The notes beneath the pieces were generated by a model. That model saw only the letters and a list, made by a program, of their open reading frames with translations, was not told the origin of the DNA and made no database searches. The translations under genes were made by a program, and so were the position numbers. Source: a bacterium (GTDB lineage Bacteria; Myxococcota; UBA727; JAUIJE01). From it: a stretch of 64,000 nucleotides of DNA. Location of the stretch: assembly GCA_030431455.1 (NCBI GenBank), contig JAUIJE010000010.1, forward strand, positions 1 to 64,000, written 5' to 3'. Below are positions 1,956-48,700 of the stretch, piece after piece. Every line of letters starts with the position of its first letter. Positions within the stretch are counted from its first letter, which is position 1.

Positions 1956-3323
1956 ATGAACAAGCGGTTTGATTTGTTTGTCATCGGCGCCGGGTCTGGC
2001 GGCGTGCGGGCCGCCCGCATGGCGGCCAAAGCCGGCCTGTCGGTGGGGGTGTGCGAGGACAAAAAGCTCGGCGGCACCTGCGTCAACGTCGGGTGCGTGC
2101 CCAAGAAGCTCTTCTCCTACGCCGCGCATTACCGCGAAGAGGTCGAAGACGGCCCCGGGCTTGGCTGGACGTCGTCGTCGCCGAGTTTCTCCTGGCCGAC
2201 CTTCATGGCCCAGAAGAACAAAGAGATCGAACGTCTGAACCGCGTGTACGACCGCATCCTCCGCGAGTCCGGCGTGGACATCATCCACGGCCGGGGCAAG
2301 CTCACCGGCCCCCACACCGTCGAGGTCGCGGGCGAGACCATCGAGGCCGACCACATCCTCATCGCCACCGGCGGGCGCCCCTTCGTGCCGCAGATCCCCG
2401 GCCGCACCCTCGGCATCACCTCCGACGGCTTCTTCCACCTGTCCGAACAGCCCCGGCGCGCGGCGGTCATCGGCGGCGGCTACATCGGGGTCGAGCTGGC
2501 GTCGATCTTCCACGGCCTCGGGACCGAGACCCAGCTGCATTACCGGGGCCCGATGTTCTTGCGCGGCTTCGACAACGACGTGCGGCACTTCCTCGCCGAC
2601 GAGATGCGCAAAAAGGGTATGTCACTGCATTTCGAATGCGACGTGCACAGCCTGGAGAAGACCGACACCGGCATCCGCATGGTCCTCGACGACGGGGACG
2701 AGGTCGAGACCGACATCGTGTTGTTCGCCACCGGGCGCCGCCCCAACATCGAGGGCCTCGGCTTGTCCCACATCGGCATCGAGCTGACCGACCGGGGCTC
2801 GGTCGCGGTCGACGACACCTACCGCACCAACCTCCCCCACATCTTCGCCATCGGCGATGTCATCGACCACCTCAACCTGACCCCCGTGGCCTTGGCCCAA
2901 GGCATGGCGGTGGTCCGTTCGCTCACCGGCGGCGACGGCACCTGCGACCTGGACAACGTCCCCACCGCGGTGTTCTCCAACCCCCACATCGGAACCGTGG
3001 GGTTGACCGAGGAGCAGGCCCGGGCCCAGGTCGGCGACATCGACGTCTACCGCTCGACCTTCACCCCCATGCGGCACACCTTGTCCGGCCGCCCGGAGAA
3101 GACCCTGATGAAGCTCATCGTCGACCAGGCCAGCGACCGGGTGCTCGGCGTGCACGTGGTCGGCCCCGAAGCCGGCGAAATTGTGCAGGGCTTCGCGGTG
3201 GCGCTCAAAGCCGGCGCGACCAAGGCGGTGTTCGACACCACCATCGGCATCCACCCGACCGCGGCCGAGGAGCTGGTCACCATGCGCGACCCGGTGCCGC
3301 CCCCGTCGCCCTACGAACAATGA
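1956..3323 (+). CDS. gor: Glutathione-disulfide reductase
   Basis: 455 aa, the usual length for the family. This flavoprotein disulfide reductase uses NADPH to reduce oxidised glutathione in the cytoplasm. Visible motifs: FAD-binding GAGSGG at residues 11-16, redox-active pair in GGTCVNVGCVPKK (Cys42 and Cys47), NADPH-binding GGGYIGVE near residue 174, FAD-contact AIGDVID, and the C-terminal active-site HPTAAEELVTMRDP, which is characteristic of glutathione reductase rather than lipoamide dehydrogenase. The ATG has no Shine-Dalgarno sequence but TACGGT lies 7 nt upstream, suggesting a leaderless transcript. The stop overlaps the next start (ATGA). Confidence 0.95.
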   Translation: MNKRFDLFVIGAGSGGVRAARMAAKAGLSVGVCEDKKLGGTCVNVGCVPKKLFSYAAHYREEVEDGPGLGWTSSSPSFSWPTFMAQKNKEIERLNRVYDRILRESGVDIIHGRGKLTGPHTVEVAGETIEADHILIATGGRPFVPQIPGRTLGITSDGFFHLSEQPRRAAVIGGGYIGVELASIFHGLGTETQLHYRGPMFLRGFDNDVRHFLADEMRKKGMSLHFECDVHSLEKTDTGIRMVLDDGDEVETDIVLFATGRRPNIEGLGLSHIGIELTDRGSVAVDDTYRTNLPHIFAIGDVIDHLNLTPVALAQGMAVVRSLTGGDGTCDLDNVPTAVFSNPHIGTVGLTEEQARAQVGDIDVYRSTFTPMRHTLSGRPEKTLMKLIVDQASDRVLGVHVVGPEAGEIVQGFAVALKAGATKAVFDTTIGIHPTAAEELVTMRDPVPPPSPYEQ

Positions 3324-4021
3324 CCGCGCTGTTGCTCTGCGCGCTGTGGGCCGGCGCGGCCCCGCCCCCGCCGCCCCCGCCCCGGCTCGACGAGCTCCCG
3401 GCCGCCGACGACGACGACGACGCGCCCGAGCCCGAGCCGGCGCCGGCCGACGGGCCGGACCTCGATGAGGAGCTCTCCGATCGGCTGGTGCTGGTGGCGG
3501 GCCAGACCGTGATCGGCATGCCCGTGGCCTTCTTGCTCGGCCCCCTCGGGCCGTTCGCCCCGCTGGCCGCGGGGGCCGCGGTGGTGATGTTCGGGGACAC
3601 CGTCGGCACCCAGCGCAGCGCGTTTTTGTATGGGTGGCTCGGCGCGTGCGCGGGGCAGTTCGGCCTGGGGGTGTTGCCCCTCGTCGCCGGTGAGCTGGCC
3701 GCGCTGGTGCTGTTCATCTTGATCCCCACCGTGTTCGGGGGGCCCGTGGGCACGATGTCGGCCACCGCGGTGGCCCTGACCGTGGCCGCCGGGGTTCTTT
3801 TTTACGGCAGCTTCGCCGCCGGCATGTTCGGGGGCGCGTTCGGCATCGGGGCCGGCGCGACCTTGGGCTACCACCTCGGGGCCGAGGACAAACTGCCCGG
3901 GGACGAGAGCTTGGAGCTCCCGGGCCTGTTTGAGCCCGCGCACCCCCCGCCTGAGCGACGCCACCGGCGGGTGCGCGAGGGGCAGGCGCCTGCGCCCGGG
4001 CGGTCGGTGCAGGCCTTTTGA
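3320..4021 (+). CDS. Hypothetical exported/membrane protein with acidic Pro-rich N-terminus
   Basis: 233 aa, translationally coupled to gor by an ATGA overlap. It starts with a short signal-like segment (MTALLLCALWAGAA), then a low-complexity Pro/Asp/Glu stretch (PPPPPPPRLDELPAADDDDD), then four to five Gly/Ala-rich hydrophobic segments from residue 55 to 195 (for example FLLGPLGPFAPLAAGAAVVMF and GMFGGAFGIGAGATLGYHLG), and a basic/proline tail. The proposed start is the only one giving a signal segment. No family recognised. Coupling to gor may be only positional. Confidence 0.7.
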   Translation: MTALLLCALWAGAAPPPPPPPRLDELPAADDDDDAPEPEPAPADGPDLDEELSDRLVLVAGQTVIGMPVAFLLGPLGPFAPLAAGAAVVMFGDTVGTQRSAFLYGWLGACAGQFGLGVLPLVAGELAALVLFILIPTVFGGPVGTMSATAVALTVAAGVLFYGSFAAGMFGGAFGIGAGATLGYHLGAEDKLPGDESLELPGLFEPAHPPPERRHRRVREGQAPAPGRSVQAF

Positions 4022-41713: not shown

Positions 41714-42721
41714 TCAGCCGCGGGGATCAAACTTTGTCTTGTCGCGCAGCTGCTCCCACAACGCGGTCACGTCGTCGTCGGGGTTGTCCGGCACCACGAT
41801 CTGGAGGACGACGTGGAGATCCCCCGATTCGTTCTTGGTCTTGGGCAGGCCTTTGCCCCGAAGCCGCAGCGTCTTGCCCGACTGCGACCCGGCGGGGATG
41901 GTGAGCTTCACCTCGCCATCGAGGGTCGGGCACGTCACCTTGGCCCCGAGCACGGCCTCCCACGGCGCGATGGGCAAGGTGGTGCGCAGATCGTGGCCAT
42001 CGAGCTGGAAGTCCGGGTGATCGGCCACGGTCACGCGCAGCAACACATCGCCGCGCTTGCCGCCGCCCATGCCGTGGCCGCCTTGGCCCTTGAGCCGAAT
42101 CCGCTTCCCGGTGGTGGTGCCAGGCGGAATCTTCACGTCATATGTCTTGGTCTCGGTCCGGCGGCCCCCATCGGGTCCGCGGCCGGTGGACTGCAGCGTG
42201 ATTTGCCGGGTCGCGCCTTTGTAGGCGTCGTACAGGCTGATCGTGATGTCCGCTTCGGTGTTCTGCCCGTCGCGGCCCTTGGGCTGGCCCTGGGGCCCAA
42301 AGGGATTCTCGCCAAAGGGAAAGCCCTGCGAGCTCCCGGGCTGCCCCCCGAAGAGCATCTCAAAAAAGTCCGAAAAGCCGCCGCCGGACACGGGGCCCTG
42401 CCGGCCCGGGCCGCGGCCCCCAAACGCGCTGTCAAAATCGAAATGTACGTTCTGCCAGGCGCCGCCCCCCGCCCCGGCCCCCGGGCGGAAGTCCTGGCCG
42501 TGGGAAAAGCCCGAGCCCAACGCGTCGTAGCGCTTGCGCTTCTCCTCATCGCCGAGCACCTGGTAGGCCTCATTGATCTCTTTGAACTTGTCTTCGGCCT
42601 TCGGATCTTTGTTGTGGTCTGGGTGAAATTTTTTCGAAAGCCGGCGGTAAGACTTCTTCACCTCCGCCGCGGATGCGGTCCGATCGACTTCCAACGTCTT
42701 GTAGTAGTCGTGGTACTGCAT
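41714..42721 (-). CDS. DnaJ/CbpA-type co-chaperone
   Basis: 335 aa. J domain at residues 1-70 with HPD at 33-35, stimulating DnaK ATPase. A Gly/Phe-rich region follows ([20 protein letters not shown]). There is no zinc finger (no CxxCxGxG repeats), so it is a class-B (CbpA-like) member. Two C-terminal beta domains end with [20 protein letters not shown] and [17 protein letters not shown]. The gene is divergent from the four-gene paralog cluster with 319 bp between. Confidence 0.92.
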
Positions 42722-43040: not shown

Positions 43041-43556
43041 ATGATCACTGCGATCGCTCTCGGGACGATGCTCTCGGTCAGCGCTTCCACCAGCGCCGAT
43101 GCCCAGACCATCACTGTGAACTCCGCCCCCACCAAGGCCCCCGTCGTGACCCAAGTTGCTGACGAGGAGCTGGGCTTCATCGACATCTGGTTCCCGTTCA
43201 TGCCGGACCCGCTGCTCGACCAAACCCCGCTCGAGCCCGAAGTCCAAGAAAACTTCTGGCTGCTCGCCATCGTGTCCGGCTTCGGCCCCTTCGGTACCTT
43301 CTGGGCCCCGATGGTCTTCCTCGACGGCGTTGAGCTGCACGAAGACTTCACCATCGAAGCTCTGATCGGCTGGGCGATTCACGTGCCGTTCTACTACTTC
43401 TTTGGTCTCGGGATTTACCTGAACATCATTCACGGCATCAACACCATCGACCGCAACATCAAAAAAGCCCGTGGCAAGCCGCCGGCGAAGTGGTCGCAAA
43501 ACAACATCGACGCGCTCCCCGGCATGGAAAAAGCCGTGGCCACCGCTGCTTACTGA
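43041..43556 (+). CDS. Small exported membrane protein, paralog cluster member 1
   Basis: 171 aa, ribosome site CAGGAG. A likely signal/N-terminal segment MITAIALGTMLSVSASTSADA, then the shared core: DEELGFIDIWFPFMPD, then hydrophobic FWLLAIVSGFGPFGTFWAPM (helix 1), TIEALIGWAIHVPFYYFFGL (helix 2) ending in YLNIIHGINTIDRN. A basic linker (NIKKARGKPPAKW) leads to the tail DALPGMEKAVATAAY. No family recognised. It is the first of four tandem paralogs and has its own terminator (43576). The conserved TEA/IEA-LI-W-IH box and AAY end are shared with members 3 and 4. Confidence 0.75.
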   Translation: MITAIALGTMLSVSASTSADAQTITVNSAPTKAPVVTQVADEELGFIDIWFPFMPDPLLDQTPLEPEVQENFWLLAIVSGFGPFGTFWAPMVFLDGVELHEDFTIEALIGWAIHVPFYYFFGLGIYLNIIHGINTIDRNIKKARGKPPAKWSQNNIDALPGMEKAVATAAY

Positions 43557-43575
43557 GCTCGGTTGCGTTGATTCG

Positions 43576-43603
43576 AAAAAGCCGCCCACCCGGGCGGCTT
43601 TTT
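43576..43603 (+). terminator. Intrinsic terminator after paralog 1
   Basis: Stem AAAAAGCCGCCC (43576-43587) with GGGCGGCTTTTT (43592-43603), loop ACCC, followed by CTTTT. Strong rho-independent terminator 20 bp after the stop. Confidence 0.95.
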
Positions 43604-43620
43604 CTTTTGTGGCGTCGTCC

Positions 43621-43649
43621 TTGAGCGCCCGCCGCGGGCGGCTTATACC
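43621..43649 (+). promoter_or_regulatory. Probable promoter of paralog 2 (leaderless)
   Basis: TTGAGC (43621-43626), a 17-bp spacer, TATACC (43644-43649), then GTG start 6 nt later at 43656. No Shine-Dalgarno sequence. Confidence 0.5.
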
Positions 43650-43655
43650 CGGCGC

Positions 43656-44123
43656 GTGATTGCCTCGTTGGTTCTGACCGCTGTGCTCGCGTCTGCGCCC
43701 GCCGCTGGCGAGGCCGAAGCCCCGTCGGCCGAGACCGAGGAGCCGGGGTTTTTCGCCACCAACTGGCCCACCGCGCTGCCGAACGATCTGCACCCGGAAA
43801 TCTATGACAAGCGGGTGTTCATCTGGGTGCTCGCCGGCGCGACCTGGCTCATCGGCGGGCACATCTGGGCGCCGGGCCTGGTGCTCACCGCCGAGGCCGG
43901 CGACGAGCACACCGACGAAGCGATCTGGGCCTGGCTGACCCAGCTGGCGCCGATTTGTCTGTGCGGCCCGTGCGGACCGATCTACGCGGTGTTCACCACG
44001 ATGTGGTTCGCCCCCGTGCGCACCATCCGGCTGTACGACGCGTTCGTGAAAAAGGGCGAGCGCACGACCGCGGCCCCGGACGCGCCCCCCACCGCCCAGC
44101 GGCCGGTGGCGATCCGGTTTTAG
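43656..44123 (+). CDS. Small exported membrane protein, paralog cluster member 2 (divergent)
   Basis: 155 aa, GTG start. Signal segment MIASLVLTAVLASAPAAG, then EEPGFFATNWPTALPNDLHP matching the family block, IWVLAGATWLIGGHIWAPGL (helix 1), TDEAIWAWLTQLAPICLCGP (TEAI-W box variant), and a second hydrophobic part with CLCGPCGPIYAVFTTMWFA. The C-terminus is short (VAIRF) and lacks the LPxM/AAY tail of the others. No Shine-Dalgarno sequence; a TATACC box lies 6 nt before the GTG. Function unknown. Confidence 0.72.
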   Translation: MIASLVLTAVLASAPAAGEAEAPSAETEEPGFFATNWPTALPNDLHPEIYDKRVFIWVLAGATWLIGGHIWAPGLVLTAEAGDEHTDEAIWAWLTQLAPICLCGPCGPIYAVFTTMWFAPVRTIRLYDAFVKKGERTTAAPDAPPTAQRPVAIRF

Positions 44124-44226
44124 ACCCGTTTGCCGACATTTTCGCGCGCGCCGGGGGCCCAAACCTCGACTCGCCCGTAGGACGGGGAGAGCAACGCCCG
44201 CCACCGCTCACCCCGAGGAGTTCGCC

Positions 44227-44865
44227 ATGTTTGCCCTTCCCTTGACCCTGGTGTTGTCCGCTGGCCTCGCCGGGGGCGCCACCGACGTCGCCAGCGCACA
44301 GCAGCGGGTCACCGCGCAGACCACCGCCACCGTCGGCACCCACGTGCGCGAGGCGGCCGCGTCACGCGCCACGACGCCACGGGTGGTGCTCACCGCCAGC
44401 GATGACGAGCGCGGCTTCATCGACAAGTACGTCCCGTTCATGATCGCCGACGAGCTCCATCCCGACGTCGACCAGAACCTCGTCGCGATGTACATCGTGT
44501 TCTTGCTGGCGGGTGAGTTCGCCGGGCCCCTGTGGATTCCCAAGCTCTTCGTCGACCTCGATCCCGGCCCCGACTACACCACCGAAGCCCTGATTTTGTG
44601 GATCAGCCACACCGCGGCCTTCGTGCTGAGCATCTTCCCGGGGTTTTACCTGTGCGGCACCGGCCTCATCGGTGCGCTCATCTGGGCCCTGTATTTGAAC
44701 CCCGTGGCCTACATCAACTCATTCAACCACCACGTCATCGTCGAGAACGGCATGGGCGGCAAGAACAGAAAGAAGAAGTCCAAAAAGCGCAAGGGTCGAC
44801 GCGGCGCGATGTTGTCGTTGCCGGCGATGCCACAGCTGGCGACGAGCACCGCCGCCGCCTACTGA
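44227..44865 (+). CDS. Small exported membrane protein, paralog cluster member 3
   Basis: 212 aa, ribosome site GAGGAG. Signal MFALPLTLVLSAGLAGGATD followed by a polar stretch, then DDERGFIDKYVPFMIADELH and PDVDQNLVAMYIVFLLAGEF, GPLWIPKLFVDLDPGPDYTT (the AGPLWIP and VDxGxDYxTEA core), TEALILWISHTAAFVLSIFP, and LYLNPVAYINSFNHHV. A Lys/Arg-rich linker (KNRKKKSKKRKGRRG) precedes the tail LSLPAMPQLATSTAAAY. Close to member 4 over the whole core. Function unknown. Confidence 0.75.
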   Translation: MFALPLTLVLSAGLAGGATDVASAQQRVTAQTTATVGTHVREAAASRATTPRVVLTASDDERGFIDKYVPFMIADELHPDVDQNLVAMYIVFLLAGEFAGPLWIPKLFVDLDPGPDYTTEALILWISHTAAFVLSIFPGFYLCGTGLIGALIWALYLNPVAYINSFNHHVIVENGMGGKNRKKKSKKRKGRRGAMLSLPAMPQLATSTAAAY

Positions 44866-44896
44866 TTCGTGCTTTCTCTGCTCCACCGAACACGCT

Positions 44897-44927
44897 AACA
44901 GCCCCCCATCTGACATGGAGGGCTGTT
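44897..44927 (+). promoter_or_regulatory. Hairpin sequestering the ribosome site of paralog 4
   Basis: A 13-bp stem with one mismatch (44897-44909 with 44915-44927) and a 5-nt loop CTGAC. The 3' arm contains the ribosome site GGAGGG, and the GTG start begins immediately after the stem at 44928. No T-run follows, so it is less likely to be a terminator. It could block translation until opened by heat, a protein or an upstream ribosome. Confidence 0.6.
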
Positions 44928-45557
44928 GTGTTGACTCATCTTTTGCTGACTGTTGCGTTGTCTGGTCCTGCCCCGGCGATGACGATGTCCCCACACGCGG
45001 GCATGAGCCAGGAACAAAGCGCTCACCTCGCCGACGGCGTGTCGGACATCGTGGCCACGGAGTCGCGCGCGACCACGCAACAAAAGCGCGTCGTCCAGGT
45101 GGCCAAGGACGGTGACCGTGACTTCATCGCGACCTACTTCCCGTTCACCCTGCCCGACAACCTGCACCCCGCGCTCGAGGAAGACCTGGTCGTGCTGTGG
45201 TTGGTGCACGCCATCCTCGGCTGGGCCGCCGGCCCCCTCTGGATTCCGTCGGCCATCGCCAAGGTGGACACCGGGGACGACTACCAGACCGAAGCGATCA
45301 TCAACTGGCTCATCCACACCATTCCGTTGGTGGCCAACGCCATCGCCTACGTGCCCATCGTGGGTTGGGCGATCTTCGTGTTGAACTGCGTGCAGTACTT
45401 CTACCTGTACCCAGTGGCGACGTTCAGCCAGGTGACCTACCACGCCACCGGCGGTGGCGGCGGCAAACGCAAGCGCAAGAAGTCCGCGCTCAAGGACCTG
45501 CCCGGCATGCCCAGCTTCGCCCAAGCGAACGTGCCCGCGGCGGGCCACGCCTACTGA
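44928..45557 (+). CDS. Small exported membrane protein, paralog cluster member 4
   Basis: 209 aa, GTG start placed by GGAGGG 5-6 nt upstream. Signal VLTHLLLTVALSGPAPA. Core: GDRDFIATYFPFTLPDNLHP, LEEDLVVLWLVHAILGWAAG, PLWIPSAIAKVDTGDDYQTE, AIINWLIHTIPLVANAIAYV, then NCVQYFYLYPVATFSQVTYH. Lys/Arg linker GGGKRKRKKSALKD and tail DLPGMPSFAQANVPAAGHAY. The ribosome site is buried in a hairpin. A strong terminator follows at 45598. No function assigned. Confidence 0.78.
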   Translation: MLTHLLLTVALSGPAPAMTMSPHAGMSQEQSAHLADGVSDIVATESRATTQQKRVVQVAKDGDRDFIATYFPFTLPDNLHPALEEDLVVLWLVHAILGWAAGPLWIPSAIAKVDTGDDYQTEAIINWLIHTIPLVANAIAYVPIVGWAIFVLNCVQYFYLYPVATFSQVTYHATGGGGGKRKRKKSALKDLPGMPSFAQANVPAAGHAY

Positions 45558-45597: not shown

Positions 45598-45624
45598 AAA
45601 CGCGGCCGGCCCCGGCCGCGTTTT
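45598..45624 (+). terminator. Intrinsic terminator after paralog 4
   Basis: Stem CGCGGCCGG (45601-45609) with CCGGCCGCG (45612-45620), extended by AAA/TTT, then TTTTCCTTTT. Confidence 0.93.
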
Positions 45625-45658: not shown

Positions 45659-46690
45659 GTGATGGGGCGCGGTTTGTCGTTGATTTGCCTGGGCTTGGCG
45701 CTGGTCGGGCCCGCTTCGGGCCGTGCCCAAGACGCTGACGGCGCCGGCGCGCCCGCTCCCGCCGACCCCGCGCCCGCCCCCGCCGACCCCGCGCCCGCGG
45801 CGGACCCCGAGCCCGCCGAAGCCCCCAAAGCCCTCCCCAGCCTGCTCATCCTCCCCATCCGCCCCGCCGCCGGGGTCGAAGAGGACACCACCAAGATCCT
45901 GGACGACCTCGCCGCCGTGCACATGGAAAAGCACAAAGACCACCTCGACGTCACCGCCTACGACGACGTCAAACAGGTGCTCGACCTGCAAGGGGAAAAA
46001 CACGGGCTCGGCTGCGACGAGGCGAGCTGCCTCGCCGACCTCGCCGGGGCCCTTGGCGCGCGCTACATCGTGACCGGGCGGCTGGGCAAGCTTGGCAGCA
46101 ATTACATTTTGACAATGTCCCTGTTTGACTCGGACGAGGCCGACAGTGTGGCCCGGGGCAAAGCCAGCGCCGACGACCTCGGCAGAATCGGCGACAAGAT
46201 CCCGGCCATCCTCGACCAGCTCGTGGGGCCGCTGGGCGTGGTCACCGCTGCGCCCCCCGCCACCACCGAGCCGGTGAGCACGCCCCCCGCCCAGGCAGAG
46301 ACGCCCCCCGCCGAGGCCGATCCCCCGGCGTCGAAAAGACCGCGCCCCGCGCCCCTGCCCCCGCCCGACCCCCCCACCGAGGGCGGGTTCAACTGGTTGG
46401 CGATCGGAGGCGGGGCCGCCGGCCTCTGTGCGGGTTGCGGCCTGATGGCGGCCGGCACCTGCTTCGACCTCACCAACTGGGGGTGCAGCGGCTGCCTGCC
46501 CGGCGCGGCCGGGGGCAACGGCGCGCTCGACGCCATGGACTTCATCGGGCCCGGCATCTGTGCGGTCGGGCTGGTGCCCTGCGTGGCCGGCCTCGGCGCG
46601 CTCGGCTTTTCCTATTCGCCCGGCGAGGAGCCAGCGCCCCGGCGCGAACGCGATCGAGACCGCCGAGACGACGAGGAGGCGGTGCGATGA
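45659..46690 (+). CDS. Membrane protein of the repeated module, copy 1 (A1)
   Basis: 343 aa. GTG at 45659 (ATG at 45662 is the alternative); TAACTA lies 6 nt before the GTG. Signal MGRGLSLICLGLALVGPASG, then an Ala/Pro/Asp-rich linker. Residues ~65-190 form a domain beginning LLILPIRPAAGVEEDTTKIL with VTAYDDVKQVLDLQGEKHGL and ARYIVTGRLGKLGSNYIL, like TolB-N/CsgG-type periplasmic domains. After a Pro-rich spacer, a C-terminal module with two hydrophobic segments (CGLMAAGTCFDLTNWGC; GPGICAVGLVPCVAGLGALG). Overlaps the lipoprotein partner gene (ATGA). Confidence 0.78.
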   Translation: MMGRGLSLICLGLALVGPASGRAQDADGAGAPAPADPAPAPADPAPAADPEPAEAPKALPSLLILPIRPAAGVEEDTTKILDDLAAVHMEKHKDHLDVTAYDDVKQVLDLQGEKHGLGCDEASCLADLAGALGARYIVTGRLGKLGSNYILTMSLFDSDEADSVARGKASADDLGRIGDKIPAILDQLVGPLGVVTAAPPATTEPVSTPPAQAETPPAEADPPASKRPRPAPLPPPDPPTEGGFNWLAIGGGAAGLCAGCGLMAAGTCFDLTNWGCSGCLPGAAGGNGALDAMDFIGPGICAVGLVPCVAGLGALGFSYSPGEEPAPRRERDRDRRDDEEAVR

Positions 46691-47112
46691 TGCGCCTGGT
46701 CATCGTCACCACAATGCTGTTGCTCTGTGCCCTGGGGGGCACGGTGGCGTGCAGCATCCTCGATGGGGTGGGGTTGATTCACACCGACGGTGGGTTCGTC
46801 CCCTGCAACATCGCGACCCACCAAGAGGCGGTGGACCAAGACGGCATCTCGCGCTGCTGTGTGATCGACAACGCGGTGGATTCGTTGGCCGCGGGGGAGA
46901 CGACGTCCTGCGATGCCGCGTCCTGCCTGGTGTTGTCCACCGGCCTCGACGCGGTGCGGGTGCAGTGCTGTGACGTCGCCGACGAGCAGCCCTACAAGCA
47001 GGACGCCACCGACAGCGAAGGCCACTGCTGCGAGCCCCTCGACGCGGTCAGCGCGGAATGCCGCGACGAAGGGACCTGCGTGCTCCGCGACACCAACACG
47101 GTGGACTGCTGA
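46687..47112 (+). CDS. Cys-rich lipoprotein of the repeated module, copy 1 (B1)
   Basis: 141 aa. Signal MMRLVIVTTMLLLCALGGTVAC with lipobox. The mature part has CC pairs (SRCCVIDN, VQCCDVADEQPYKQDATDSE, GHCCEPLDAVSAECRDEGTC). The unit VQCC...CC...ECRDEGxC is shared with B2 at 48104. Its stop overlaps the next gene (TGATG), so translation of A2 is coupled. Function unknown. Confidence 0.78.
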   Translation: MMRLVIVTTMLLLCALGGTVACSILDGVGLIHTDGGFVPCNIATHQEAVDQDGISRCCVIDNAVDSLAAGETTSCDAASCLVLSTGLDAVRVQCCDVADEQPYKQDATDSEGHCCEPLDAVSAECRDEGTCVLRDTNTVDC

Positions 47113-48107
47113 TGGGCCTGCCCCGCGGTCCCTGGCCGTGGCTCGTCGTCGTCGCCGCGCTGGGGACCAGCCCGGTCGCGGCCCAAGCAGACGCGGGGCC
47201 CGAAGACGCGGGGCCCGAAGAAGCGGGGCCCGAAGAAGCGCCCCCTGAAGAAGCGCCCTCTGAAGAAGCGGGGCCCGAAGCAGCGGCCCCCGAAGCAGCG
47301 CCCCCCGCAGAAACGCCCGCGCCCCCCGAGACCGCGCCGGCGCCGCCCCCCCCCGCGCCGCGGCCCCCCGCGGGCAAGCCGGCGGTGTTGGTGCTCAACG
47401 TGCAGCCAGCGGCCGGTGTCACCGTCGACACCACCCGGCTGTTGGACGACCTGGTGGCCGTGCACATGGACACCAAGGAGGCGCGGTTGGACGTCACCGC
47501 CTACAACGACGTCAAGCAGATGCTCGACCTCGAGGGGGAGAAGCAACAGGCCGGCTGCGACCAAGCCGCTTGCCTCAGTGACATTGCGGGGGCGATGGGC
47601 GCCCAGTACGTGATCAGCGGCCGGCTGGGCAAGCTCGGCACCCGCTACCTGTTGACGTTCACGCTGTTCGATTCCACCGCCGCCGACAACCTCGCCCGGG
47701 TCAACGTCAACGTCGACTCCCTCGACGAACTCACCACCCGCATCCCCCCCGCCCTCGACGAGCTGGTGGGGGCCATCCCCGTCGACGGGGCCGTCGCCCC
47801 CGCCCCGGTCCCCGCCGCCGACCCGGTCGACGACGGAGAAGCGAACTTCTGGGCCATCGGAACCTCGGGTGGTCTCGCCGCCTGCGGGGGCTTGCTCATG
47901 GCCGGCGGGGTGGGGTTTGACCTCATCAACTACTGGGGCGCGGTCGCCGACCCCAACAACCTGCGCGGGGCCAACGGCACCTTCGATCCCCAGGACGTCG
48001 TCGGGCCGCTGGCCTGCGGGTGCGGGGGGCTTGTGGTGTTGAGCGGGCTCGCGTTGTTCCCGCTGTGGACCTCAGAGGGCGACGCCCAGACCGGGGACAC
48101 CGAATGA
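47112..48107 (+). CDS. Membrane protein of the repeated module, copy 2 (A2)
   Basis: 331 aa. Signal MGLPRGPWPWLVVVAALGTS, then Ala/Pro/Glu repeats (AGPEE units) followed by LVLNVQPAAGVTVDTTRLLD, VTAYNDVKQMLDLEGEKQQA and AQYVISGRLGKLGTRYLLTF: the same domain as A1 and clearly paralogous. C-terminal module ACGGLLMAGGVGFDLINYWG, NGTFDPQDVVGPLACGCGGL, LALFPLWTSEGD. Overlaps B2 by ATGA. Membrane topology and partner are inferred. Confidence 0.78.
   Translation: MGLPRGPWPWLVVVAALGTSPVAAQADAGPEDAGPEEAGPEEAPPEEAPSEEAGPEAAAPEAAPPAETPAPPETAPAPPPPAPRPPAGKPAVLVLNVQPAAGVTVDTTRLLDDLVAVHMDTKEARLDVTAYNDVKQMLDLEGEKQQAGCDQAACLSDIAGAMGAQYVISGRLGKLGTRYLLTFTLFDSTAADNLARVNVNVDSLDELTTRIPPALDELVGAIPVDGAVAPAPVPAADPVDDGEANFWAIGTSGGLAACGGLLMAGGVGFDLINYWGAVADPNNLRGANGTFDPQDVVGPLACGCGGLVVLSGLALFPLWTSEGDAQTGDTE
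47193..47312 (+). repeat. 15-bp repeats in A2 (eight units)
   Basis: Eight in-frame units of GCGGGGCCCGAAGAA and close variants run from 47193 to 47312, encoding the AGPEE/APPEE linker between signal peptide and folded domain. Confidence 0.85.
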
Positions 48108-48700
48108 ACACCTGTCGCGTCCTGTGGCTGCTGGCCTTGGCCCCGTTGTGCGGGTGCGGTCTGGCCGATGCCTTCTGGATGAGCCCGTTGCCCTTCGGCG
48201 TCGCCGTGGTGGCCTGCGAGGACGGCGTCGCCGAGCTCGCCTACGAGATCGACGAAGGCGAGTATTACTGTTGCTTCTACGGAAACGATGACGGTCAGCT
48301 CGCGGTGGCCAACGCATACAGCTGCGCCTCCCCCGGGGGCATCGACCGCGAGTGCGTCATTCAGGGCATCGTCGACGACGAAGCCCAGATTCAATGCTGC
48401 GCCGAGAACGAAACCACGCGATACGACGACGAAGCCGACGTGGAGCGATGCTGCAACCAAGACAGCGTCGACGGGGTGGTGGAGTGTCGCGACGAAGGGG
48501 GCTGCCGCTACGACCCCGACACCGAAAACGCTGTGTGTTGTCCCGAGGGCGAGGCGCGGTTGGTGGTCACCGACGTGGTGGTGGGCGGGGATGACCAGAC
48601 CGAAGTCCAATGCTGCCAACAAGGGGGCGTCACCGCGTACAGCTGCGACGGCGATCCGTGCGTCCTGAACGACGGCAACATCATCTGCGGTCCCCAATGA
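48104..48700 (+). CDS. Cys-rich lipoprotein of the repeated module, copy 2 (B2)
   Basis: 198 aa. Signal MNTCRVLWLLALAPLCGC with lipobox. Mature part has many CC pairs: EYYCCFYGNDD, QIQCCAENETTRYDDEADVE, RCCNQDSVDGVVECRDEGGC, VCCPEG, VQCCQQGGVTAY. It looks like B1 with extra repeat units (VQCC-x-Y-x-D...CC...ECRDEGGC). Start overlaps A2 (ATGA) and the stop overlaps the SDR gene (ATGA). Function unknown. Confidence 0.78.
   Translation: MNTCRVLWLLALAPLCGCGLADAFWMSPLPFGVAVVACEDGVAELAYEIDEGEYYCCFYGNDDGQLAVANAYSCASPGGIDRECVIQGIVDDEAQIQCCAENETTRYDDEADVERCCNQDSVDGVVECRDEGGCRYDPDTENAVCCPEGEARLVVTDVVVGGDDQTEVQCCQQGGVTAYSCDGDPCVLNDGNIICGPQ

Follow-up and report, generated by a model that had tools for sequence, protein, structure and literature searches.

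Four tandem genes in the window (the whole 64,000-nucleotide stretch of DNA that was analysed) raise two questions: to which family their small products belong, and why these products end in similar residues. The four open reading frames were confirmed as initially annotated, all on the + strand: W1 (43041..43556; 171 aa), with a signal peptide and a hydrophobic core; W2 (43656..44123; 155 aa), with a GTG start and no clear ribosome-binding site; W3 (44227..44865; 212 aa), with a polybasic linker; and W4 (44928..45557; 209 aa), with a GTG start after GGAGGG and also a polybasic linker. Intrinsic-terminator-like hairpins with a T tail lie 3' of W1 (43575..43604, +; 13 pairs) and of W4 (45598..45623, +; 11 pairs). 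The claim that the four proteins align over one core was borne out by pairwise BLASTP and a multiple alignment, which confirmed homology, and the core motifs were present. The two-sequence E values were 2e-28 (W3/W4), 5e-15 (W1/W3), 2e-12 (W2/W4), and 4e-9 (W1/W4); the W1/W2 match is weak taken alone (E = 0.01).

The upstream flank of W1-W4 contains a divergent DnaJ gene (41714-42721; matches to Pfam DnaJ and DnaJ_C). Adjacency to DnaJ beside W1, and to DnaK near the members of G003 and G025, was considered as a clue and dropped, being inconsistent between loci. The downstream flank contains two pairs of exported proteins of types other than the W1-W4 family. In these pairs, two paralogous exported proteins (45662-46690 and 47112-48107), for which Pfam gave no match, have a TolB/CsgG-like N-terminal part (by eye) and C-terminal hydrophobic segments, and each gene is followed by one for a small Cys-rich exported protein (46687-47112 and 48104-48700).

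No known family accounted for these proteins, as had been claimed: searches of Pfam, NCBIfam, PHROGs, and the sequences of all solved structures (PDB), with single members and with 19 members, gave nothing above noise. DUF4870 (PF09685) came into consideration through a GPL..W / EAL pattern and because one of the 19 members matched it weakly (E = 0.015; 0 above the 25-bit cut-off), and was rejected by profile-profile comparison (hhalign probability, 0.5%); the genome carries a separate true DUF4870. The best match to fatty acid desaturase (PF00487) reached 18.4 bits (cut-off, 29.7; E = 0.0014-0.002), and the alignment of the members has no His boxes, so this family was rejected as well. AlphaFold2 models of W3 and W4 had about three helices at a mean pLDDT of only 41 and 44, respectively, and were judged poor; the family cores look α-helical in these models, with low confidence.

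The initial annotation had described a tandem family of four, and homology among the four stands, while the restriction to a tandem does not: the genome has 11 copies, and the family is represented in seven further genomes. A profile of W1-W4 detected seven further paralogues on six other contigs of the same genome (C20, C4, C16, C2, C13, and two on C18), and, by profile search, one copy each in five genomes of the same order (G002, G006, G003, G008, and G010) and no copy in the remaining ten genomes of the order (0.3-2.8 Mb). Outside the order, the family was found in only two others of 195 phylum genomes: G025 (five copies) and G032 (two copies). G006 corresponds to record JACOUT010000002.1 (a groundwater MAG) and G032 to JAFGSX010000007.1, both placed in Myxococcota by NCBI, and scans of named genomes gave relatives only in the records matching these two. 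The family is thus confined to a clade, as had been anticipated. W1-W4 are, as judged from these searches, members of a new orphan family of previously unnamed, lineage-restricted exported membrane proteins. Large Myxococcota genomes are expected to carry membrane families restricted to one lineage, and the part of most value is the C-terminal end.

The members appear to be Sec-exported small membrane proteins of a fast-diverging, lineage-expanded family, with signal peptides recognized by eye and by simple scoring. The layout comprises a signal peptide; a segment of variable sequence, acidic or rich in Pro/Ala; a core with FPF...DDLHPEV...GPLWIP...EALI.W..H...PVA..N.YDR that forms some two or three hydrophobic helices; often, a basic linker; and a free C-terminal tripeptide of the type hydrophobic-[A/R]-[Y/F]. 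The tails in the window are LPGMEKAVATAAY in W1 (43515..43553, +; ending VATAAY), AQRPVAIRF in W2 (44094..44120, +; ending PVAIRF), LPAMPQLATSTAAAY in W3 (44818..44862, +; ending STAAAY), and LPGMPSFAQANVPAAGHAY in W4 (45498..45554, +; ending AAGHAY). The shared LPxM...AY tail that had been described is present on W1, W3, and W4; LPxM was not found in other members, in which the last three residues are conserved instead, and the LPxM box is not supported as part of the signal. Furthermore, W2 had been regarded as tail-less, perhaps with a different role, and it in fact has the conserved kind of end, QRPVAIRF-COOH, which was overlooked.

The last residue was Tyr or Phe in 15 of the 16 complete members outside G025, and in nine of the ten complete members of the genome itself, with hydrophobic-[A/R]-[Y/F]-COOH as the usual end. 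Among the genes called over 2.24 Mb of the genome, Tyr or Phe is last in 5.6%, and the 15 of 16 is therefore not chance (naive binomial, 2.5e-18). The exception is the C2 paralogue, which ends in QWH; the C13 copy leaves the contig before its C-terminus. The ends in other genomes include QMTY (G002), AMAY (G006), SLAY (G003), SYAY (G008), AMAF (G010), and QFAY (G032). Among 15 family tails, position -1 is Tyr or Phe in 15/15 and position -2 is Ala or Arg in 13/15; a large hydrophobic residue occupies -3 in 11/15 (P = 7e-4 against a background of 30%), -4 in 0/15, and -5 in 4/15. Some tails have Ala, His, or Gln at -3. The five members in G025 lack the tail and end in basic or acidic runs, which indicates that the core does not need it; in two of them (L059 and L061), a poly-Lys run and then a poly-acidic run replace the aromatic end (KKKKKKKKKKADDEDEE and KKKKKKKKAVEEEEEE). 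Most branches of the family tree have a length of about one change per site or more, and the tree shows no expansion of a single clade; recent descent alone therefore does not explain the kept end. In an unnamed family, a core that diverges freely while the last residues are fixed points to a chain end that is recognized. Bacteria disfavour aromatic and hydrophobic C-termini, which reduce protein levels (PMC7246954), and an aromatic end that is kept in spite of this suggests that it is used or recognized.

Recurrence of the tail on other proteins of the genome, which the initial annotation had named as support for its reading, was found in about ten exported polytopic proteins. Gene calling and the scoring of signal peptides and helices relied on simple scripts of our own, and the following counts, from 1,719 well-scored non-family genes, are approximate: with the family removed, [AR][YF]-COOH occurred in 10/161 proteins that combine a signal peptide with two or more predicted helices, 11/555 other exported proteins (partly β-barrels), 0/78 polytopic proteins without a signal peptide, and 6/925 proteins with neither a signal peptide nor more than one helix. 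The enrichment in the first class versus all other proteins was significant (Fisher p = 8e-5), while aromatic ends were not enriched genome-wide (Y/F, 5.6%). The tripeptide is a short motif, and a wider one, with Gln and His in the hydrophobic set, was partly chosen post hoc from the data. One carrier lies in the window, an exported Gly-rich polytopic protein (3320..4021, +) that ends in RRVREGQAPAPGRSVQAF (GRSVQAF); the others are C16:390016 (AAAQAY), C18:254995 (PVSMAF), C18:256570 (STPVRY), C2:9502 (PTAVRY), C2:387623 (ALAMRF), C18:507508 (PAAQRF), C4:173200 (TGVRF), C4:261829 (SIGGRF), and C4:301340 (PLMRF). C18:507508 adjoins a family member, and its TolB-like part resembles the proteins at 45662-46690 and 47112-48107. 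In the first of the classes counted above, a signal peptide plus two or more helices, a C-terminal Glu is also frequent: 34/161 versus 84/1558 in others (p = 2e-10, family removed), often with a Gly-rich helix running directly into the final Glu (C16:552770, C16:555858, C18:322796, C2:280733, and C4:454658 in G000, for example).

The ten carriers showed no BLASTP similarity to the family. Remote homology was considered for three of them, including that at 3320-4021, and hhalign gave probabilities of 0.5, 0.1, and 14%; the 14% match falls in the signal-peptide and linker region. If the recurrence were due to chance or misclassification, only the family would keep the ending by descent. Just ten non-family cases in 2.24 Mb, called and scored by home-made methods, would be compatible with this, and some carriers, such as C2:387623 and C4:301340 (E = 0.003), may be remotely homologous to each other. 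On the other hand, the Fisher value was obtained using a simple motif taken from the family, and the aromatic end is kept in orthologues of one non-family carrier, both of which argue against chance and make it a distinctly improbable explanation. That carrier, C4:261829, a non-family protein with HEAT-like repeats and Gly-rich helices, ends in GGRF, and its orthologues in four other genomes end in AGTF, SGTF, SGSF, and GGAF. The protein (C4:261829-263445; orthologues, L200-L203) is exported and HEAT-repeat-like and contains a long helical domain rich in Gly; among the larger genomes of the order, it is conserved at 40-45% identity. No orthologue of C18:254995 was found in other genomes of the order.

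A terminal aromatic residue on exported proteins also recalls the β-signal of outer-membrane proteins, and the tail may, by imitating this signal, deliver these helical proteins to BAM or to the outer membrane. BAM substrates are β-barrels, whereas the family cores look α-helical (low confidence). Similar ends occur on β-barrel-like proteins encoded in this genome (GVSYGF, FGARF, ATLRY, GVGYRF, LGYAF, and TVGVRF), and orthologues of C4:261829 have strand-like ends (AVPGVMLAGTF and ATPIAMISGSF). The recognized outer-membrane motif is an alternating pattern with an aromatic or hydrophobic last residue (PMC3582582). This alternation is absent from the family tails, which seldom have a large hydrophobic residue at -5, as described above, and in several cases have Pro at -4 to -7 (PPPSLAY and PPPSYAY). 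Because the tails lack strand periodicity, targeting to BAM was judged to have a poor chance of being correct.

The segment before the tail bears on two other explanations. Aromatic residues favour membrane interfaces and the tail is found on membrane proteins, so that it may have only a local structural role, for example in anchoring the chain end at the membrane surface without a dedicated receptor. Against such anchoring, the tail follows Pro/Ala/Arg-rich linkers that can be long (more than 100 residues in the C4 paralogue), and the -1/-3 spacing with Ala or Arg at -2 is specific; we consider this role quite unlikely. Many tails are preceded by a polybasic linker, and the first helix by an acidic flank, so that the positive-inside rule argues for a cytoplasmic C-terminus, where HtrA proteases are absent. 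If the tail is cytoplasmic, a protease degron is a better reading than a PDZ ligand: Lon, FtsH, or ClpXP would recognize the tail as a signal for degradation or quality control, and the tail would thereby set the level of these membrane proteins. In line with this, hydrophobic C-termini make degradation faster, and aromatic residues abound in Lon degrons (PMC7246954). The stricter hydrophobic-[AR]-[YF] end is, on the other hand, almost absent from cytosolic proteins (2/925), which a general cytoplasmic degron does not explain unless it is specific to membrane proteins; we consider a degron unlikely.

The reading that we prefer, with a probability of roughly one in three, is that the tripeptide is a portable recognition tag, for which the most likely reader is a domain of the PDZ type, for instance that of a periplasmic HtrA protease. 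The tag would be read via its carboxylate and two side chains, those of the last and last-but-two residues. The PDZ domains of DegS and AlgW accommodate aromatics at 0 and -2 (YQF and WVF; PMC8545111), and, since these positions in PDZ numbering are the last and last-but-two residues, the tag has the same spacing as DegS/AlgW ligands. MucE (WVF) and truncated pilin (FTF) are exported proteins that activate AlgW through such ends (PMC3819740 and PMC3684759). A hydrophobic residue at -3 and an aromatic one at the end fit HtrA/DegS/AlgW PDZ ligands better than the BAM β-signal, and the tails with Ala, His, or Gln at -3 would be weaker than known PDZ ligands. The outcome of binding would be either activation of the protease, the effect that the WVF end of MucE has on AlgW, or regulated turnover of the tagged protein. 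A periplasmic location of the tail would be a further step, and the least certain one. The HtrA/DegP-type profile TIGR02037 had 10 matches in this genome (G000) versus at most one in small-genome relatives lacking the family, a difference confounded with genome size, and no HtrA-like gene adjoined the paralogues in the sampled stretches. A broader proposal, that the tag is previously undescribed and spread across one order of Myxococcota on unrelated exported helical membrane proteins, which a dedicated receptor sorts, clusters, or turns over, with the 11-copy family as its most consistent carrier, is tentative and on balance doubtful. If the tag is real, it would mark out envelope proteins that are handled together in a little-studied lineage of Myxococcota, and would enlarge the small group of exported proteins known to be signalled by their three terminal residues.

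The tag is a candidate addition to a known kind of C-terminal signals. The closest parallel is MucE of Pseudomonas aeruginosa, a small exported envelope protein and AlgW ligand with a C-terminal tripeptide (WVF; hydrophobic-x-aromatic) that a PDZ domain recognizes; the family tails resemble it in the aromatic last residue (15/15) and the large hydrophobic residue at -3 (11/15). MucE is, however, a single protein from a different phylum, whereas here there are many carriers, Ala or Arg at -2, and a receptor that is only proposed. The C-terminal signal of β-barrel outer-membrane proteins is similar in its terminal Phe or Tyr and hydrophobic -3 residue, and differs in that the family tails have no alternating strand, a Pro-rich approach, and helical cores. 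DUF4870 is likewise a small membrane domain of several helices and shares the PL-I/W helix end and EAL-like box, but differs by the profile comparison given above. PEP-CTERM, MYXO-CTERM, and the type IX CTD are also short shared C-terminal elements on otherwise unrelated exported proteins; these tags consist of a helix plus a basic cluster at the end, or of folded domains, in contrast to the bare tripeptide of this family.
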